Positions 46,825 to 55,760 of a stretch of 64,000 nt of DNA are shown piece by piece. Both the position numbers and the translations under genes were made by a program. The DNA is from Halodesulfurarchaeum formicicum (GTDB lineage Archaea > Halobacteriota > Halobacteria > Halobacteriales > Halobacteriaceae): NCBI RefSeq assembly GCF_001886955.1, contig NZ_CP016804.1, forward strand, positions 1,426,001-1,490,000. Reading direction: 5' to 3'. Position 1 is the first letter of the stretch. Every line of letters begins with the position of its first letter. Under the pieces are notes generated by a model that saw only the letters and a program-made list of their open reading frames with translations, searched no databases and was not told the DNA's origin.

Positions 46825-47301
46825 TTACGATCGCGCGCTGTCCCAGAGGATCGCCCGAATGCGGGCGTACGAGCGGAGCGAGAGTGGCCGTTGGCCAGCC
46901 AGTTGGGCACGGAGTGTCGTTCGATCGCCGAGCGCGTGAGCGTCTACCAGCGCCGTCAGATCGATCGGGACCCGCGCCATTTCGACTTGCAGGTCCTCCC
47001 GGATCCGCTCGCCGATCTCGGCTTCGGACAGCGAAGACTCGACGGCGAGAATCGCGGCCGCCGAATCGATCGTCAGCGATGGCGTCGACGATGCGTCCGT
47101 AGAAGCCTGCAGTGACGCCACCGGCTCCCGATCCAGCCCCGTCGCCGCAGCCACGGCGTCGACGCCCGCGGCTCGCACCACCGTAGCCAGGACCGCCCGA
47201 TACTCGCGACGGAGCGTCTCGAAACTCTCCAGCGAGACAGTGATCGGGTCCGCACATCGCTCGGGAACCCGCAAAAATGCCGTCAGTGGCGGCTCGGTCA
47301 T
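46825..47301 (-). CDS. Conserved haloarchaeal protein (DUF5791-like)
   Basis: A 158-aa soluble helical protein without a recognised domain. It reads as a run of short helices (YRAVLATVVRAAGVDAVAAA, DSAAAILAVESSLSEAEIGE, LSLRSYARIRAILW) with a layout similar to the haloarchaeal DUF5791 family, from memory. It starts 6 bp after the stop of the 957-aa exported protein, so it is very probably co-transcribed with the pilus-like cluster. It could be a regulator or a bystander. Confidence 0.68.
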   Translation of the reverse strand: MTEPPLTAFLRVPERCADPITVSLESFETLRREYRAVLATVVRAAGVDAVAAATGLDREPVASLQASTDASSTPSLTIDSAAAILAVESSLSEAEIGERIREDLQVEMARVPIDLTALVDAHALGDRTTLRAQLAGQRPLSLRSYARIRAILWDSARS

Positions 47302-47307
47302 CGCCGC

Positions 47308-50181
47308 TCACCAGCCTGGGGACTCCTCGATCGCGTCGCCACCGCGATCGCCCACGCCGGTCTTGCCCGGCGGGACCACGATGACCACGCCCGTCTGGGC
47401 CTCGAAGTCGATCGCGCGATTGGAGCCGAGACGGTCGGGATGCCCATCCCGATCGAGGTCCAGTCGGACAGGGCTGTCCTCCCGGACGTATTTGACCGTC
47501 CCGTTCTCTGCGCTGCCGGGTGCGGCCCGACGCGTGCGAACACTGACCTGCTCGTAGGACCCCCGAACCGAGACCGTCCAGGCGTTCGCGGTGGCATACC
47601 AGGAGCCGGGCATCGGCAACAGCGGCAGCCCGGCGGGGAGCTTTGTGACCGAGGAGTCAGTGGCCTTCTCCCAGGCTGCCGTCCCGACTTTCTCGCCGGC
47701 CGCCTTGGCCGTCTCCGAGACGACGGGATTCGAGCCGGATTCGACCGCCACACGGGCTTCCTCGACCAGGTCCTGGGAGACCTGTACCTCGGATTCGGAC
47801 TGGATCTCGGTCCCGGCGACCCGGAGGGCCACGCGCAGCCGATCCCGCTCGTGGGATGGCACCCCCGCCGGAAGCGAGTCGCCGATGGCCCGCGCCAGTC
47901 GCCCGTCCGTGATCGCGAGCGCCCGGGACGCGGTGTCGGGATACCGGTTCGTGGCAGTGGTGACGACCCGATCGGCTTCGTGGGACCCCAGTTCCGCTTC
48001 CAGGACCGACCGGTAGCGGGCCGTGGCACTCGCCACCGAGCCCTCGACCTCGCGACGGAGCGCACGGACCTCGCGGCCGGACACGGAATCCCGTGAGTCG
48101 ACCGCTGCGAGCGTCTGGGCCGCGGTCCGGAGGGTAACCTCTCGGGACCCAACACCTTCGACCTGCTCGGTGACGGCATCGGCTGCATCCCCGTAGGGGA
48201 CCGTAAAGAGGTTCACGTTCCGAACGTCGATCGATGGGTCGGTCGCCGAGGGCGGGTCAGCGGAGAGATACGCCGGGCCGGTGTCTACCCCGGCCACGTA
48301 CGGGGCCCGTGTGGGGGTGGATCGTTCGGGCGGTTCGCTCGGAATCGCGTGGGACTGGAGCTGATCCGAGAACGCGGCCTGTGCCTGCTGGACCTTGGGG
48401 GTTCGGTCCCCCAGGCGGTCGGTGAGTCGGTCGAGGTACGTCTGTCGGGTGGCGGCGACCGCTCGATCCGCCGCCGAGTCGTAGCTGGCGGGTGTCTCAA
48501 GGAGCGCCCCTCGACGGGCAGCGATCGCTTTTCGCAGTTTTCGAGCCGGGTTCGTGGAACTCGCGACCGAGCGAGTCTCGACGCTCACTGAAATGTCTCG
48601 GACGGCCCGTCGAAGTTCGCCAGTCTCCCGCTGGGCCCGGTTCCGAACGGTTTCGGGCGGGTCCAGGTCGATCGGCTCCCAGCCCGACTCGCCGTCACCG
48701 TCGACGGCCGCCTGTGCCCGATTCGAGAGCGCCGACCCCGAGAGCAGGCGGTCGGACCCGTCCTCGGCCAGTTGCTCGCGCACCTCGGCCCCGAAGGGAC
48801 ACCGATCATCGGGTCGGTCCGGCGCGATTCCCGGCGGCTGGTACCGACAGGAAAGTGTTAGTTCGACGGCGTGGGTTGTGTGATCTACCGCCTCGGTCAA
48901 CGCGAGCGAGCCGTTCTGGACCCACCATTTGGTGACCCGTCGTTCCTCGATCACCTGCCCCTCGTAGGTCCGGAGGGTCGAACCGTGGCCGGACTCCCAG
49001 TGGCCGTCCGCCAGCCACTCGTCAGTGTGGAGGGTCCGGCCGAGATAGGTCCCGTTCGATGGCGGCGGTTCGGCAGCCACCCGCTCGGTGTCGATCGGCC
49101 GGGAACGGGTCTCGACGCGCACGTCGGCTCGATAGACATCGTCGACGGTCGATTCCAGACCCGGACCATCGTGGCCCGCAACGTAGTCCAGGAAGGCCTC
49201 GTCGGCGGTGTGGTTCGCGTCGACCGACTGTTCGTTGTCGACGACGCTCGGTAGCGAAACCGACGGGGACCCCTCGACCTCGCCAGCTCCCTTCTGGTCA
49301 CCCCGTGGCTTGCTGACCTGGGACTTCAGCATCTCCTCGGCTCCCGTAAAAGCGTCCCGTGTGGCGACATCCATGGCGGCGACGCTCACGCCACGGCGGC
49401 CCGCCGGGTCCGCCTGGCCGAAGACCGCCGCCTGCTGAGCCACTGCCGCATCGTTCGCCATGAGTTCGACGTGGCGGTTCGCCAGGACGTTCTGGATCGG
49501 CGCGCCCCCGTACTGGGCGTAGCCCCGCGCCCAGACGATCGGAAAGAGCCGGGCCGTGAGATCGCGGGCGAGCCCCGGCTGGGCCAGCCCGGCGTTCAAC
49601 CGCTCCTCGTATCGACTCGTCCGATCGTGGAGCGACAGCGAGGGGAGTTCCATCGTGATCGTCTCGTTGTACCGGAACCGGTCGATGGGCCGATCGTGTC
49701 GCGTGACAGTCACCCGCAGGTCCCGGATCGTTACTCGATAGCGGTCCGCCGTGACGGGTTCGATAGACACACGCTCCAGGGCCGCACGGGCCGACTCGTG
49801 GTCCCGGACCGGTGGCAGCGAGACGGTGGCTTTGACGCCGGCCCGACCCGCCTCGGCCTCCTGTAGGGCCGTCTCGGCCGCCCCCGCGATCCGAAGTTCG
49901 AGGGCGTGTTCGAAGGTGTCGTTCTCGGGGAGCGCCCGGCCCAGTCCACGCGGACTCGGCTCGAGAACCGGTTCGGCCGCGGCCGCTCGATCGGCGTCCC
50001 GAATCGCCGTGTCGAGGGCCAGTCGGGCCTCGATCTGGGCGTCGCTACCCACCTCATCGACGATGGGTTCGGTTGTGGCCGGCGGGGCCACGGAGGCGGC
50101 ATAAAGCGAACTCGTCAGGAGCAGGACCGCCCCGATGAACGCGAAGGGGACCCGTCCGCGGCGGTCGGCGACGAACGTCAT
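47308..50181 (-). CDS. 957-aa exported protein with prepilin-like N-terminus and Ca-binding-type motif
   Basis: Large protein of the Tad-like cluster (resembles haloarchaeal DUF7286, from memory). The N-terminus ADRRG|RVPFAFIGAVLLL has an RG site followed by one hydrophobic helix, the layout of archaeal class III (prepilin peptidase) signals. The rest is predicted extracellular: acidic, Arg/Ala-rich, with long helical stretches and cysteines only in CRYQPPG ... DDRCPFG. Near the C-terminus D908-x-D910-x-D912-G-x-x-D916 fits a calcium-binding loop of EF-hand/dockerin type. ATG 50181 overlaps the previous stop (ATGA); a GTG lies 9 bp upstream. It could be the secreted or tip component. Confidence 0.75.
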   Translation of the reverse strand: MTFVADRRGRVPFAFIGAVLLLTSSLYAASVAPPATTEPIVDEVGSDAQIEARLALDTAIRDADRAAAAEPVLEPSPRGLGRALPENDTFEHALELRIAGAAETALQEAEAGRAGVKATVSLPPVRDHESARAALERVSIEPVTADRYRVTIRDLRVTVTRHDRPIDRFRYNETITMELPSLSLHDRTSRYEERLNAGLAQPGLARDLTARLFPIVWARGYAQYGGAPIQNVLANRHVELMANDAAVAQQAAVFGQADPAGRRGVSVAAMDVATRDAFTGAEEMLKSQVSKPRGDQKGAGEVEGSPSVSLPSVVDNEQSVDANHTADEAFLDYVAGHDGPGLESTVDDVYRADVRVETRSRPIDTERVAAEPPPSNGTYLGRTLHTDEWLADGHWESGHGSTLRTYEGQVIEERRVTKWWVQNGSLALTEAVDHTTHAVELTLSCRYQPPGIAPDRPDDRCPFGAEVREQLAEDGSDRLLSGSALSNRAQAAVDGDGESGWEPIDLDPPETVRNRAQRETGELRRAVRDISVSVETRSVASSTNPARKLRKAIAARRGALLETPASYDSAADRAVAATRQTYLDRLTDRLGDRTPKVQQAQAAFSDQLQSHAIPSEPPERSTPTRAPYVAGVDTGPAYLSADPPSATDPSIDVRNVNLFTVPYGDAADAVTEQVEGVGSREVTLRTAAQTLAAVDSRDSVSGREVRALRREVEGSVASATARYRSVLEAELGSHEADRVVTTATNRYPDTASRALAITDGRLARAIGDSLPAGVPSHERDRLRVALRVAGTEIQSESEVQVSQDLVEEARVAVESGSNPVVSETAKAAGEKVGTAAWEKATDSSVTKLPAGLPLLPMPGSWYATANAWTVSVRGSYEQVSVRTRRAAPGSAENGTVKYVREDSPVRLDLDRDGHPDRLGSNRAIDFEAQTGVVIVVPPGKTGVGDRGGDAIEESPGW

Positions 50182-50669
50182 CGCGACCACCGCCGGACGA
50201 CGACCACCGGCTCACACTGCTCGGTGGCACTGGCTGGGGCTGGAACCTGGTACACCGTCGCCCGGACCACCTGGTCGCCAGGCGGGGCCGGGCCGACGAC
50301 GAGTGGATCGGTCGACTCGGTGCCCCGACAGCTCCCGACCAGCTGAACTGGCAGGCCGTGGGTCTCCAGGTGACTGCTCACCGTCGTCTCGACGGCCGAA
50401 CGGAACGCAGCCGTCCGTGGCGTCTGTGAACCGTGACTGGCCAGGATGGCGTCCCTGAGCAGTGTGCCCACCGTCGCCTCGACGGAATGAGCTCCGGCGG
50501 ACGTCTCGTACTCGACCGTGAGCGTGCTCCCGAGGACAGACGGGGTCCCGTCCTCGGTCGGTGGGTCGGCGGGCTGGGGAATCGAGGTGACGAGAACGCC
50601 CGCCGCGAGACCGACCAGGAGGAGCCCGAGCACGACATCGAGCACCGTGCTCACGCCGCGCTCGCTCAT
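50178..50669 (-). CDS. Prepilin-like single-pass protein of the Tad-like cluster (A)
   Basis: A 163-aa protein. It starts MSERG|VSTVLDVVLGLLL, a short basic leader with RG directly before a hydrophobic helix, which closely matches archaeal type IV prepilins. The remainder is a soluble domain with two cysteines (VGSCRGTE, EQCEPVV) that could form a disulfide outside the cell. ATG 50669 overlaps the upstream stop by 4 bp and its own stop overlaps the 957-aa gene by 4 bp. Resembles DUF7284 from memory. A pseudopilin role is inferred. Confidence 0.72.
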   Translation of the reverse strand: MSERGVSTVLDVVLGLLLVGLAAGVLVTSIPQPADPPTEDGTPSVLGSTLTVEYETSAGAHSVEATVGTLLRDAILASHGSQTPRTAAFRSAVETTVSSHLETHGLPVQLVGSCRGTESTDPLVVGPAPPGDQVVRATVYQVPAPASATEQCEPVVVVRRWSR

Positions 50670-51037
50670 GCACTCACCCGGAGCAGGCCAGGCTGCTCCC
50701 CGGTCGCCGTGCGAACGAGCACGTGTCGAATCCGTGTTCGGTCCGGATCTGCAGGCGGGTCGTTGTACTCCCACACCTGGCCGTCGGCTCGGAGCGTCAC
50801 GCCGACATCCGGCGGAAGCTCGCCGTCCAGTTGATCCATCCGTGCCGGCACCACCGTCGAGCCTTCGCCAAGGGTTTCGGCGGTCGCCGACACCGTGGCG
50901 TCGGTGATCTCGGGCCCAGTCGGGTTCGGGACCCCGGAGAGGGTGACCCCGTACAGGGAGATCCCGATGGCGAAAATCGCGACCGCCAGCAGGGCCGGAA
51001 GCGGCTCGATCTGGCCCCTACGCGCCGACGAGAACAC
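50666..51037 (-). CDS. Prepilin/TadE-like single-pass protein of the Tad-like cluster (B)
   Basis: A 123-aa protein starting with GTG 51037. The N-terminus VFSSARRG|QIEPLPALLAVA has RG then Q, with a Glu at +3, before one transmembrane helix (LLAVAIFAIGISLYGVTL). This resembles TadE-like and class III signal proteins. The soluble C-terminal 85 residues are beta-rich. It overlaps the gene upstream by 20 bp and the downstream gene by 4 bp, so expression is tightly coupled. Resembles DUF7285 from memory. Confidence 0.7.
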   Translation of the reverse strand: MFSSARRGQIEPLPALLAVAIFAIGISLYGVTLSGVPNPTGPEITDATVSATAETLGEGSTVVPARMDQLDGELPPDVGVTLRADGQVWEYNDPPADPDRTRIRHVLVRTATGEQPGLLRVSA

Positions 51038-51485
51038 GGTTCACCTCCCCGTAAGTTACCTGTCGAACCCGCAAGGTCTCGCTGTTCTCGCGCCAGGACG
51101 CCGGCCGCCCGGTTGCGCGTTCCGCCGCCCCGGCGAACGCGATCGATCCGTCGAAGACCGCTGCCGGGGACTGCCCGTCGAGCACGCGTTCGAGCCTCGA
51201 ATTGGGCGGCACCGGCGTGACCGGCCCATACTGGATGTCCGCGTGGGCCGTGCCACCAGCGCCCCTGAGGCTGACCCGCTCCGGGCCGATCTTGACGGCC
51301 TCGGCTCGCAGGTCGATCGTGGCCGAACCGGGATAGTCGGTCGCCGCAACCGAGTCGATCGTCGACGCCGTGCGCTCGGCGTCCGGCGGAGCCGTGGGAA
51401 GGCTGAGGGCCACACCCAGCATGGTCGCCGAGACGAGCACCAGGCCGACCCAGAGCCACGTCGTGTCGGCGGGAACGTCGAACAT
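51018..51485 (-). CDS. Single-pass membrane protein of the Tad-like cluster (C)
   Basis: A 155-aa protein. One N-terminal hydrophobic helix (about 10-29, LWVGLVLVSATMLGVALSLP) follows the short leader MFDVPADTTW, which has no RG or KG site, so it is probably a plain membrane anchor. The rest is a beta-rich soluble domain outside the membrane. Resembles DUF7283 from memory. It starts 26 bp after the TadC-type gene and overlaps the next gene by 20 bp. Confidence 0.7.
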   Translation of the reverse strand: MFDVPADTTWLWVGLVLVSATMLGVALSLPTAPPDAERTASTIDSVAATDYPGSATIDLRAEAVKIGPERVSLRGAGGTAHADIQYGPVTPVPPNSRLERVLDGQSPAAVFDGSIAFAGAAERATGRPASWRENSETLRVRQVTYGEVNRVLVGA

Positions 51486-51511
51486 GAACTGGGGTGGTCC
51501 GACGTTCCTAC

Positions 51512-53026
51512 TTAAACATACACCAGCGTCCGGGCGGCCACGAAGGAAAGCGGGTAGACGAGGCTGCTGACACCCAGCGCGATCCCGCTCTGAAAGCCCA
51601 TCCGGACCGGGTCGAACCCGCGAGCCAGGACGACCGAGAGCGAGGGGAGAATCGCCGCGAGCAGGAGGACATAGATGCCCACGACACGGCCCAGCGGCGC
51701 GACCTCGATGGTGTAGCCCGCCTCCGCGGCGTTCATCCCCGTCGCCAGCGCCACCGTGACCCCGGCGATCGCCGGCGCGAACACGACCGCGGTCTGCCGG
51801 AGCGTGCTCGTGGTCTGTGCGAGTTCGCGGCGGGCCTCACGCTCGACCGCGAACAGCTCACCCAGGTAGCTCCCGACGGTCTGGAGTGTCGCCCCGCCTT
51901 CGGGACCGTACTCGCCCGCCGTCACGAGAAGCGACGTGGCCGCTCGGACACGCTTCCGTGACAGTTCGGCCACCACACCATCGGGACCGAGAAGCGCCGC
52001 CTCGACCGGCTCGCCCGATTGAAGTCGGCGAGTTGCACCCGCTTCGAAGAGATCGCCGATCGGTCCGTCGAAGCGCTGGCCGATGGCGGGCAGCGTCCGT
52101 TCGAGGGGGGCACCGGCTTCGAGTCGTTGCCCGGCGACGGCCAGCACGTCGGGGAGCCGGGCCGCTAGCTCGTCGAGTCGGTCCTGCTCCTCGACGATCG
52201 GCCGGAGCCAGACGAACAGTGCAGTCCCCAGACTCGCGCCGACGGCGACGATCGGCCCGACCCAGGACGGTCCAAGGACGGTCGCGCCCGGCGTGGCGAG
52301 GATGGCCGCACCAAGCCCGGCCAGCACCACCGTGACCCAACTCGTCCCGTGGGCCAGCAGCCCGCGGTCGAACGCGCTGTCGGCGATCGCCGGCCGGCGG
52401 GCCCACAGCCATACGCCGCTCGCGATCAACCCGAGCGGAACCAGCAGATCGTACGCGACCGCCAGCGCGACCATCGAGACGCCGCCACCAGTCGAGGAGA
52501 GCACTGGCAACAACCCGACCAGTGCGAGCGGGAGCATCACGCCGAACGCGTAGATCCCCATCGCCGGCCCGCGAATGGCCGTCGAGAACTCGACGACCCG
52601 TTCGCGAGTCCCTTCGAGGACCGCTTCGAGGGCATCGGCCAGCGTCTCCGCCCGTCGCTCTGCAGGCGCGTCCATCGCGACCCCCAACAGGGTACTCGCC
52701 CGGCGAAGGGATGGGGCATAGGGTGCCCATTCGGCACCGAACGTCTCGAAGGCACGGTCACCGGAGACGGCCGTGATCCGATGGGCCGCAAGCGAGCGAC
52801 TCAGTCGGCCGTCGACGGCCCCCGTCGCGAAGTCCGCGCCGCGTTCCAGGGACGGCGTGAGTTTCAACTGGAGGATCACGAAGGCGATCAGGTCCGGAGC
52901 GGCCCCGACCGCCCGGATTCGACTGAACTCGTCGAGTCGATCCCGAACCGACGCCAACAGCTCGTCCAGCCCCAGGATCGTCAGGACTGTCGCCCCGGTC
53001 GTCGCCCACTCGATTCGCTCACCCAT
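51512..53026 (-). CDS. TadC/GspF-type pilus platform membrane protein
   Basis: A 504-aa polytopic membrane protein with the duplicated T2SSF layout of archaeal PilC/TadC. There are cytoplasmic helical bundles (about 60-160 and 300-400, the second with LPDVLAVAGQRLEAGAPLER) and hydrophobic segments such as GIYAFGVMLPLALVGLLPVL, LLVPLGLIASGVWLWA, AAILATPGATVL, TAVVFAPAIAGVTVALATGM and GIYVLLLAAILPSLSVVLA. It would couple ATPase rotation to pilin assembly. The start MGERIEW at 53026 overlaps the ATPase stop by 8 bp. Confidence 0.85.
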   Translation of the reverse strand: MGERIEWATTGATVLTILGLDELLASVRDRLDEFSRIRAVGAAPDLIAFVILQLKLTPSLERGADFATGAVDGRLSRSLAAHRITAVSGDRAFETFGAEWAPYAPSLRRASTLLGVAMDAPAERRAETLADALEAVLEGTRERVVEFSTAIRGPAMGIYAFGVMLPLALVGLLPVLSSTGGGVSMVALAVAYDLLVPLGLIASGVWLWARRPAIADSAFDRGLLAHGTSWVTVVLAGLGAAILATPGATVLGPSWVGPIVAVGASLGTALFVWLRPIVEEQDRLDELAARLPDVLAVAGQRLEAGAPLERTLPAIGQRFDGPIGDLFEAGATRRLQSGEPVEAALLGPDGVVAELSRKRVRAATSLLVTAGEYGPEGGATLQTVGSYLGELFAVEREARRELAQTTSTLRQTAVVFAPAIAGVTVALATGMNAAEAGYTIEVAPLGRVVGIYVLLLAAILPSLSVVLARGFDPVRMGFQSGIALGVSSLVYPLSFVAARTLVYV

Positions 53027-54845
53027 CAGCCCGAGCCTCCGATGTGTGACTGTCCCGAGTGAGCGGCGACCCCGTGAGCGCGTCGGCACGAGTCTCGATC
53101 GCCCGGCGGGTCTCGGCGTAGGTCTCTCCCGGAGTGCTGATCGACTCGACGAAGTGACTGTTTCCCCGTTCGAGGCGCGGCGTCTCATTCAGTTGCGTGC
53201 CGTCGTACGCATAGAGGGTGGCACTTCCCCCGTCGGTGACCTCCTCGATCGTGTGGACTCGCTTCCCATCGGCCGTGGGTTTGAGCGTGACCAGGAGATC
53301 CGTCGCGGCAAAGGAAGACTCAGGGACCCCCAGGTCGGCCACCACCCGCTCTTTCACCCCCTCGTAGCCGTCGCCGTGGATCGTCCCGATGACGGTGTCG
53401 CTGGCTGCGCCCACCCGCATGGCTTCATAGAGGACCGACGCTTCCTCGCCCCGGACCTCGCCGACCGCCAGCGCGCCGTTGCCAAATCGAAGCGCGGTCC
53501 GCAGCGCGGTCGCCGGATCGATCGCCGCATTCGGGTCGGCGGCGGCTTCGAGGCGCTGCACGTCCCGACCAGCGTCCTGGAGCGCCCGAACGGGCAACTC
53601 CGGCGTGTCCTCGATGGCCAGCAGGCGAGTGTGGGCGGGGAGTTCCCAGAGCAACGCCGAGGCCATCGTGGTCTTTCCAGCCCCTCGCGGCCCGGCGATC
53701 AACAGGGCGCCGCCCCGCTCCATCGCCACGGAGAGTAACCCAGCCGCCGCAGGCCCAAGGGTCTCATTCGCGACCAGATCGTGTAATCGCCAACGATCGG
53801 TGCCCTCGACCCGGAGCGCGAAGGCATATCCATCGCTCGCGGGTTCACGAACACCCGCAACCCGCACGGCGTCGGCCGACCCGATCCCGGAGAGCGAGGC
53901 GTCGATAGTCGGCGAGGCCCGCGAGAAGGCCCGACCACTCTCGGAGCGGAGACCGGCGGCGAGTCGATCCGCGCCGCGGTCGGTGAGCCTGACGTTCGTG
54001 CGCCGTTCCTCGCCGTCCACGCGGACGAAAAGCGAGTTCTCGGTCGCCGGTGCGTTGACGAAGACCTCCGACAGCCGGTCGTCGGCAAAGAGATCCTCGA
54101 AGACGCCGTATCCGGCGGTGTGTTTCTGGAGTACCCGGGTGAGCGTGTCGATCGGGCAGTCCGTCCCGGCGACGGCCTCGACCGCCGCTCGATGATCCCT
54201 CGTTGTGCCGGGGGCCGTCGCGAGCAGCCGATCCCGCGCCGCGGCAAGTGTCGACAGGGCCGTGTCCCCGAGGGTGTACTCCAGCGGTTCGAGGTGATGG
54301 ATCGGCTGGCCGTGGGGCCGATCGTAGACCCGAACGGTCGCGCCGGAATCGAGCACGCGGGAACCCCGGAGCACCCCATCCGACGGCGGCCGCTGGTCGA
54401 GTGCGCTCGACGCGATCGTGGGGACCCGGATCGGATCGAGTACGTGCTCGTAGCTGTCGTCCTCGTACGAGGCCAGCCCACTCGCCGTGGCTGCCTCGCC
54501 GACAAGTCCAGCCCGCCCAGCGGCCTCGGCGGACACATCGAGGGGATCCTCGCGGGTACGCGTGGCGAGGCGTTCGTCCCGGGCCCCGATCCGACCAGCG
54601 AACTGGGCGGCGGCACGGAACAGGTCGACCGCCTCACCCTTGTGCACCCGCACGACGCCGGCTCGCTGGATGCGAATCACTTCGATGGGTCGAGAAATCG
54701 CTTCGACGACAGTCCGACGGCAGGCCCCACTCGTCACGAGGTCACCGCCGGACGGGCAGGAAGTCGCGTCGAGTTGCAGGGTCGATCCGTCCGTCGTGGG
54801 CACACACTGGCAGGCGGCCTCGGCGTCGTCCGACGATCCGAACAT
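53019..54845 (-). CDS. TadA/VirB11-type secretion ATPase
   Basis: A 608-aa assembly ATPase. The C-terminal half contains Walker A GPRGAGKT (about 385-392, K391), the Asp/His box region LLAIEDTPELPV, and Walker B GALAVGEVRGEE, followed by IGTIHGDGYEGV. The N-terminal extension of about 230 residues includes four cysteines, C12, C14, C30 and C42, which could bind zinc. It powers the pilus-like machine together with the TadC-type protein downstream. Two genes upstream encode its likely accessory proteins. There is no separate retraction ATPase here. Confidence 0.87.
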   Translation of the reverse strand: MFGSSDDAEAACQCVPTTDGSTLQLDATSCPSGGDLVTSGACRRTVVEAISRPIEVIRIQRAGVVRVHKGEAVDLFRAAAQFAGRIGARDERLATRTREDPLDVSAEAAGRAGLVGEAATASGLASYEDDSYEHVLDPIRVPTIASSALDQRPPSDGVLRGSRVLDSGATVRVYDRPHGQPIHHLEPLEYTLGDTALSTLAAARDRLLATAPGTTRDHRAAVEAVAGTDCPIDTLTRVLQKHTAGYGVFEDLFADDRLSEVFVNAPATENSLFVRVDGEERRTNVRLTDRGADRLAAGLRSESGRAFSRASPTIDASLSGIGSADAVRVAGVREPASDGYAFALRVEGTDRWRLHDLVANETLGPAAAGLLSVAMERGGALLIAGPRGAGKTTMASALLWELPAHTRLLAIEDTPELPVRALQDAGRDVQRLEAAADPNAAIDPATALRTALRFGNGALAVGEVRGEEASVLYEAMRVGAASDTVIGTIHGDGYEGVKERVVADLGVPESSFAATDLLVTLKPTADGKRVHTIEEVTDGGSATLYAYDGTQLNETPRLERGNSHFVESISTPGETYAETRRAIETRADALTGSPLTRDSHTSEARADG

Positions 54846-54867
54846 GGATCGGGGTGGCCCGGTGCCC

Positions 54868-55335
54868 CTACTTGAACCCTCGGGCCACCGTCACCACCGG
54901 CCGCCCGTCGACGAGCCGATACCGAAGGGTGAGGTCACTCGAATCGTCGAGAACGAGCGTGTCGTTCCACCGGACTGCTCGTTCCGTGCCCACAGGACGA
55001 ACGGGCATCGAGAGACGGGTGATCGAGTCGGGCTCGCCGGGAACGCTGGTCCGGAGGACGGTGTCGGTTCCGTTTCCCGAAGCGGGTTCGATACTGAGAG
55101 AAACGCCTGCGGGTTTCGGGGGGATGGTCACCGACACCTGTCGGCGAGCCCCCGGAACGCCGGGCTGGACTGGATCGTTGTGGCGAGTGAGGTCGGTCGC
55201 TCCAGCGGTCAGCCGATCGACACTCCCCGAGAGTTGCTGGTCGGCCCGGGCCGCCTGGGCCTCGTGAATCGCTGGCATCGCAACCCCGATGAGTGCCGCG
55301 GCGAGGACCACCGCGAGCAACACCCGAACGCTCAT
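54868..55335 (-). CDS. Small anchored protein of the Tad-like cluster (D)
   Basis: A 155-aa protein. The N-terminus SVRVLLAVVLAAALIGVAMP is a hydrophobic helix close to the start, followed by a short helical linker and a beta-rich extracytoplasmic domain. It looks like a signal anchor or pseudopilin-like N-terminus without RG. ATG 55335 overlaps the stop of the coiled-coil gene (ATGA), and the stop is 22 bp before the ATPase start. Resembles DUF7311 from memory. Confidence 0.68.
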   Translation of the reverse strand: MSVRVLLAVVLAAALIGVAMPAIHEAQAARADQQLSGSVDRLTAGATDLTRHNDPVQPGVPGARRQVSVTIPPKPAGVSLSIEPASGNGTDTVLRTSVPGEPDSITRLSMPVRPVGTERAVRWNDTLVLDDSSDLTLRYRLVDGRPVVTVARGFK

Positions 55336-55760
55336 CGAAGGTCCCGAAGCCGATCGAGGAGTCCCGACTCCGCGGTGGGTTCGGCCGGCTCCGCGGGATC
55401 AGACTCGGTGGTTTCGGTCCCAGAATCGGCGTCCGCTGTCGTCGGGTCGGGGCTGGCCGTGGCGATCGGCGGTGGGGTCTTCGGAGCCGATTCGAGCCGT
55501 TCGACGGCGGCTATCGCCGCGTCGGCCCGCCGTTCGACCGACTGGTTGACGTGCTCGACCTGGCCCACATAGCCCCGCAAGGCCTGGACCTCCGAGCGGA
55601 GTTCGGTGACTGTCTCCTCAAGGGATTCGATTCGGGCTTCGAGGGACTCCTCCCGGGCGGGGTCGGTGTCCGCGCTGGTCGGTGCGGCCGGACCCTCACG
55701 GTCGTCGAATCGGCGTTCAAGAGCACCTAGTCGTTCGTCGATGGAGCGTCGTGCAGGCAT
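55332..55760 (-). CDS. Coiled-coil protein of the Tad-like cluster (E)
   Basis: A 142-aa acidic cytosolic protein. A coiled coil spans about 37-95 (EARIESLEETVTELRSEVQA, HVNQSVERRADAAIAAVERL). A Pro/Thr/Asp-rich linker follows, and a short C-terminal amphipathic helix LLDRLRDLR ends the protein. It is the first gene of the cluster, just downstream of a phosphodiesterase-like gene and overlapping the next by 4 bp. ATG 55760 was chosen because the longer frame is antisense-like. Resembles DUF7310 from memory. A regulator or assembly-factor role for the ATPase is inferred. Confidence 0.68.
   Translation of the reverse strand: MPARRSIDERLGALERRFDDREGPAAPTSADTDPAREESLEARIESLEETVTELRSEVQALRGYVGQVEHVNQSVERRADAAIAAVERLESAPKTPPPIATASPDPTTADADSGTETTESDPAEPAEPTAESGLLDRLRDLR

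Follow-up and report, generated by a model that had tools for sequence, protein, structure and literature searches.

In the genome of the haloarchaeon Halodesulfurarchaeum formicicum, eight minus-strand genes probably build a type IV pilus (T4P) of the archaeal ATPase subclade 4F, with a major pilin encoded away from the locus and the giant protein DUF7286 at the filament tip. The genes lie at positions 47308-55760 of the window, the whole 64,000-nucleotide stretch of DNA analyzed here (G000:C1:1426001-1490000), which belongs to a single-contig 2.086-Mb genome. We obtained the supporting evidence by computation: conservation of the gene order, the clade of the ATPase, the co-occurrence of DUF7286 with an unlinked pilin, and the N-terminal sites of three of the proteins. 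The system itself is not new; what is new here is its link to the unlinked pilin, shown by co-occurrence, the invariant R[GA] site in the giant, prepilin-like DUF7286, and the leaderless form of DUF7284.

Gene order, ATPase and assignment to subclade 4F

All reading frames of the locus are intact in the window, and a Pfam search matched all eight proteins to a family above the curated cut-off (Table 1). After adjustment of the gene starts by comparison with homologues, which places the start of TadC at 53026 (the mechanical open reading frame begins too early) and that of DUF7286 at 50181, giving 957 amino acids (aa), the order of transcription is DUF7310, DUF7311, T2SSE ATPase, T2SSF/TadC, DUF7283, DUF7285, DUF7284, and DUF7286. 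The genes overlap or are closely spaced: five of the seven junctions are overlaps, of 4 bp (DUF7310/DUF7311, DUF7285/DUF7284, and DUF7284/DUF7286), 8 bp (ATPase/TadC), and 20 bp (DUF7283/DUF7285), and the other two are gaps of ~22-26 bp. The original prediction, made from the sequence alone, had described eight minus-strand genes at this position with overlaps of 4-20 bp, Walker motifs, and hydrophobic helices, and each of these features was borne out. The ATPase carries a Walker A motif (GPRGAGKTT), a Walker B-type box (GEVRGEE), and a His box (TIHG). In a hydropathy scan, DUF7286, DUF7284, DUF7285, DUF7283, and DUF7311 each show a single N-terminal segment and TadC shows six strong ones; the ATPase and DUF7310 show none.

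Table 1. Genes of the locus and the gene directly downstream, with positions in the window; a slash marks the predicted cleavage position
Feature	Coordinates	Strand	Pfam match
DUF7310, 142 aa, cytosolic coiled coil	55332..55760	-	PF23991, E 1.2e-24
DUF7311, 155 aa, one N-terminal membrane helix	54868..55335	-	PF23993, E 2.5e-34
Assembly ATPase, 608 aa, VirB11/TadA class	53019..54845	-	PF00437, 53.7 bits (cut-off 24.9)
TadC/PilC-type membrane platform, 504 aa	51512..53026	-	PF00482, E 8.5e-9
DUF7283, 155 aa, membrane anchor and compact extracytoplasmic domain	51018..51485	-	PF23954, E 4.2e-51
DUF7285, minor-pilin-like, 123 aa, site RRG/QIEPLPALLAVAIFAIG	50666..51037	-	PF23956, E 2.6e-12
DUF7284, minor-pilin-like, 163 aa, site ERG/VSTVLDVVLGLLLV	50178..50669	-	PF23955, E 3.1e-8
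DUF7286, 957 aa, N-terminus DRRG/RVPFAFIGAVLLL, ~890 extracytoplasmic residues	47308..50181	-	PF23957, E 1.6e-269
DUF5791, cytosolic protein, directly downstream	46825..47301	-	PF19104, E 4e-15

DUF7286 is present in 152 of the 195 Halobacteria genomes and, as a control, in the genome of Haloferax volcanii. Of 80 named loci, 55 have exactly this eight-gene order and most of the others differ from it only slightly; the order is also found in most loci of a further haloarchaeal locus set. The eight genes are regular, not rare, neighbors across Halobacteria, so that the original prediction withstood the neighborhood check it had set for itself.

The solved chains closest to the locus ATPase in the PDB are those of CpaF (CpaF/TadA likeness). 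A phylogeny of 60 archaeal ATPases places the window ATPase on a long branch together with 14 proteins from haloarchaea and 9 from methanogens (SH-aLRT 100); the archaellum ATPase of the same genome and its two other ATPases of T4P type fall outside this clade. Because the tree holds no crenarchaeal or named reference ATPases, the 4F clade label rests on other features.

A T4P system was predicted and modeled for subclade 4F by Makarova, Koonin, and Albers in 2016 (PMC4858521). According to the passages of that survey on 4F, the subclade spans halobacteria and methanomicrobia, and its ATPase, which is given a crenarchaeal origin or affinity, has a Cys-rich N-terminus, most prominently in methanomicrobia. 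The same passages describe a halobacterial intracellular coiled-coil subunit (arCOG07564), a dedicated major pilin (arCOG02981) that is mostly stand-alone and is locus-linked in Methanocella, and a gene for an S-layer-like protein that is frequent in 4F loci. DUF7286 may correspond to this S-layer-like protein. The locus shares with this description a VirB11-type ATPase with a Cys-rich N-terminus, a cognate TadC, a coiled-coil subunit in halobacteria, a pilin that is usually stand-alone and linked in Methanocella, and the range over halobacteria and methanomicrobia. Specifically, the window and haloarchaeal ATPases have four spaced cysteines at the N-terminus (CxC...C...C), and most methanogen homologues have long N-termini containing Cys. 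TadC adjoins the ATPase in both haloarchaeal and methanogen ATPase loci. DUF7310 is confined to haloarchaeal loci among the loci compared; it fits the halobacterial coiled-coil subunit and probably has a regulatory or assembly role. We therefore file the locus under 4F, because taxon range, Cys-rich ATPase, coiled-coil subunit, and stand-alone pilin agree; the label is given by these described features, not by arCOG numbers, and nothing in the locus contradicts it. The locus differs from the description in that the 4F passages of PMC4858521 do not present the DUF7284/7285/7286 set, the R[GA] site, or a leaderless DUF7284. A literature search on arCOG07564, arCOG02981, and subclade 4F returned this survey as its only relevant match, and no paper naming DUF7283-7286, DUF7310, or DUF7311 was found. 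The locus had originally been called uncharacterized, which holds for experiments; as a system, it was already predicted in 2016.

A probable unlinked major pilin co-occurring with DUF7286

The locus contains no ordinary pilin or prepilin peptidase gene, as had been predicted; both are encoded elsewhere in the genome. The system very probably has an ordinary major pilin, at an unlinked position. In methanogens, the DUF7285-7284-7286 genes have no ATPase alongside and the ATPase-TadC pair lies elsewhere in the genome. In one methanogen locus (L227), the ATPase-TadC pair is directly followed by a gene for a small pilin-type protein with the N-terminus DERG/VEGLPVRLIVVLVVGV; in several genomes, relatives of this protein are encoded next to the haloarchaeal locus or next to its ATPase. 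The pilin-type N-terminus is conserved in the alignment of this family (A3). In the genome of the window, the A3 relative is encoded by a stand-alone gene at G000:C1:230937-231377 (E 2.8e-39) and carries a prepilin-type site, with the predicted mature N-terminus IEGLPVRLIIAFVVGVAAL.

Presence of this pilin, counted from strong matches, tracks that of DUF7286 across the 195 genomes: 150 genomes have both, 41 have neither, and 2 + 2 are discordant (agreement in 191 of 195; phi 0.94; Fisher P = 3e-37, a value inflated by the relatedness of the genomes). The two also vary in step within six genera (g2, g7, g13, g19, g36, and g64). The ATPase is absent from all 27 DUF7286-negative genomes that were checked. 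We conclude that the major pilin of the system is very probably the product of the stand-alone gene. The prepilin peptidase gene lies at G000:C1:81304, and two ordinary PilA-type pilins are encoded at C1:100135 and C1:1849555.

DUF7286 pilin sets that have no ATPase in the locus were also observed in haloarchaea (L074, L078, L094, L069, L072, L062, and L083). Some of these sets accompany a complete locus elsewhere in the genome, and a single motor may serve several tip sets in such haloarchaea. Two further genomes (G055 and G125) contain DUF7286 remnants or weak matches without this ATPase.

Prepilin-type sites and the giant protein DUF7286

DUF7285, DUF7284, and DUF7286 carry prepilin-type sites, at which cleavage is predicted from sequence. 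All 59 haloarchaeal copies of DUF7286 have R[GA] immediately ahead of the hydrophobic helix; the site nearly always reads R[GA]-[RHW]-[VIL]-P-[FL], with mostly Arg at +1, and the methanogen copies that were inspected have [GA] at this position as well. An R[GA]Q[TV]EP-type site is found in 48 of 56 haloarchaeal orthologues of DUF7285. For DUF7284, 147 homologues were counted from two overlapping locus sets, so that some were counted twice: 85 have [KR][GA] at -2/-1, 39 others have their start codon exactly at -1 (M/TSTVLD), and roughly twelve further ones begin at or close to +1. The forms without a leader include those of L048, L051, L055, L076, L077, L123, L149, and others. Because M/TSTVLD minus its Met has the same end as the product of cleavage at RA/TSTVLD, these genes independently support the position of cleavage, and they suggest a leaderless DUF7284 minor pilin in one lineage.

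The original prediction had regarded the three small single-pass proteins as pseudopilins. This view agrees with the sites of DUF7285 and DUF7284, which look like minor pilins, and fails for DUF7283, which has a prepilin site in 0 of 55 orthologues; in DUF7311, a [KR][GA] site occurs in just 3 of 50. Because they are without prepilin-type sites, DUF7283 and DUF7311 look like anchored extracytoplasmic assembly proteins and not pilins. The AlphaFold2 model of DUF7283 (predicted local distance difference test [pLDDT] score, 85.6) consists of a membrane helix and a compact domain, and it has no PDB match at E <= 0.001, resembling no solved pilin. We rejected DUF7283 as a pilin or an ArlF/ArlG-like sandwich as unsupported, its OB-like matches being not significant.

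The matching set of methanogens consists of a DUF7311 homologue, a DUF7283-like gene, DUF7285, DUF7284, and DUF7286. The methanogen operon opens with the DUF7311 homologue, which was recognized by an iterated profile that finds the window protein (E 6.8e-15). The second gene is probably DUF7283-like, an assignment that leans on its position and synteny as well as on a weak profile match (hhalign E 1e-4, probability 58%).

An AlphaFold2 model of DUF7286 built on 44 homologues (pLDDT, 79.9; predicted template modeling score, 0.57) begins with a helix pair (residues 13-31 and 39-69), an alpha/beta region to ~180, and a helical region; four long strands (351-446) come next, then a helical middle, and the C-terminus forms a beta domain. 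The fold search returned no solved (PDB) or viral structure at E <= 0.001, and a sequence-profile search of the PDB gave no significant relative; the weak, partial SecB-like fold matches were set aside. Conservation among haloarchaea is highest in the N-terminal third and at the C-terminus, where a DxDxDG stretch near residues 908-913 could bind calcium. Since ~890 residues are carried on a pilin-type helix, DUF7286 should sit in the fiber once, at the tip, and its most likely role is that of a giant minor pilin there. The large protein had earlier been proposed as the exported or tip component; as a tip component, it is plausible.

Some methanogen loci contain orphan DUF7286 C-terminal cassettes of 270-290 aa without leader or helix (L101:14059-18499, L114:14067-17350, and L111:3-4381), which alternate with genes of secreted proteins ending in a PGF/PEF-CTERM-like tail (mX family). 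Two close methanogen species share ~50% identity over the last ~70 residues of DUF7286, compared with about 90% or more over most of the remaining protein. This pattern resembles cassette-based variation; neither cassettes nor hypervariable ends of DUF7286 were seen in haloarchaea. It is a doubtful proposal that the C-terminal end is a tip recognition module, hypervariable in its Methanosarcina-type form and reshuffled from silent cassettes that are each paired with a secreted protein, with the haloarchaeal form a contact device of fixed specificity.

Proposed pilus and competing readings

To account for filament formation, we infer that the membrane-sited ATPase and TadC would add pilins at the base of a fiber formed by the stand-alone major pilin, after processing of the prepilins by the peptidase encoded elsewhere in the genome. 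DUF7285, DUF7284, and DUF7286, with their pilin-type N-termini, would form a priming or tip complex, in which the single copy of DUF7286 at the tip could act in adhesion or as a contact sensor. DUF7283 and DUF7311 would assist assembly as anchored extracytoplasmic proteins, and DUF7310 would be a cytosolic regulator.

Several observations weigh against this pilus. The literature search yielded no experiment on the gene set, and no filament has been observed. A class III signal with Arg at +1, as in DUF7286, would be unusual, and this residue also departs from the usual FlaFind pattern; K/R at -2 is kept in just 4 of 18 methanogen copies. The AlphaFold2 model of DUF7286 resembles no solved structure, and hence no pilin fold is seen in it. 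The co-occurrence counts include related genomes, and the within-genus contrasts are few: the six concordant genera stand beside one discordant genus (g35), in which two genomes (G109 and G184) have the pilin but no machine. Finally, one genome (G044) has a DUF7285-7284-7286 set without this ATPase.

The doubts about processing bear most directly on the alternative that DUF7286 is a membrane-anchored, S-layer-like scaffold at the base of the pilus, its N-terminal helix remaining uncleaved as an anchor. This alternative gains from Arg at +1, from the loss of K/R at -2 in methanogens, and from the S-layer-like protein that is a frequent 4F partner in the survey's account (PMC4858521) and that DUF7286 may be. 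We consider it somewhat unlikely, given that R[GA] is invariant in haloarchaea and that methanogens keep [GA] in the same place. Quite unlikely is a machine like a type II secretion system, in which a short pseudopilus of the unlinked pilin and DUF7285/7284 would drive DUF7286 or other substrates across the S-layer without forming a long pilus. A large exported protein beside several pseudopilin-like genes is indeed the layout of the tip complex of such systems, and the genome has other pilus systems besides this locus; yet the helix of DUF7286 directly follows R[GA], and the mature protein would retain it, whereas a Sec signal would be cleaved off; also, among the families tested no separate substrate gene accompanies the haloarchaeal loci. 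It is vanishingly improbable that the cluster is degenerate or unrelated and held together by chance: DUF7286 is a mere remnant in three genomes (G011, G066, and G125) and reading frames are split in others, but the gene order is conserved across families, which excludes chance clustering, the reading frames of the window are intact, and most genomes have orthologues.

Among known systems, the bacterial Tad/Flp pilus offers the closest solved ATPase, CpaF/TadA, and a TadC-type platform. Tad/Flp pili also have small minor pilins beside a larger one (TadE/F/G), an arrangement that the locus resembles. In contrast to the Tad/Flp pilus, which has two platform proteins, TadZ, a secretin, and an Flp pilin, the locus has a single platform gene and neither TadZ nor a secretin among its eight genes, and its ATPase scores 120 bits against the NCBIfam TadA-family model (cut-off, 373); membership in the bacterial Tad pilus was rejected on these grounds. 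The original description of a Tad/type IV pilus-like machine therefore stands as to a T4P-type machine of the VirB11/TadA class, with only a remote likeness to Tad. The ATPase is also far under the curated VirB11 cut-off. The ATPase and platform are homologous to those of the archaellum (ArlI/ArlJ), and archaellum membership was likewise rejected, given 65.7 bits against the FlaI model (cut-off, 550) and the genome's own archaellum ATPase FlaI encoded elsewhere (870.9 bits). The adhesion pili of Haloferax volcanii, PilB1-C1 (subclade 4C) and PilB3-C3 (clade 2), have an ATPase and platform of the same class, and PilB3-C3 likewise uses unlinked pilins; they differ in belonging to other ATPase clades, and the portions of PMC6491452 that describe them name no DUF7286 counterpart (PMC6491452).

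The DUF5791 gene, 6 bp after DUF7286, is its neighbor in most haloarchaeal loci. We rejected DUF5791 as a ninth subunit, because it is still in place in two genomes that have lost most of the locus: in G011, only the tail of DUF7286 is left, between the usual flanks (a phosphodiesterase gene and DUF5791), and G066 retains the DUF7286 tail together with DUF7310. Both patterns are loss in place. DUF5791 is also retained where the pilus locus is deleted (L045 and L046), and because it outlasts the pilus genes, it is probably outside the machine.

About three quarters of the Halobacteria sampled have the system, and methanogens have it in split form; the literature search found no experiment on it. 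Once an unlinked major pilin and three pilin-like partners are named, a row of DUF genes becomes a machine that can be tested. Support for the predicted cleavage position comes from the DUF7284 genes whose start codon coincides with it; these genes also suggest that the minor pilin can do without the prepilin peptidase. With DUF7286, a protein of ~1000 residues and no solved relative is predicted at the cell surface of common haloarchaea.

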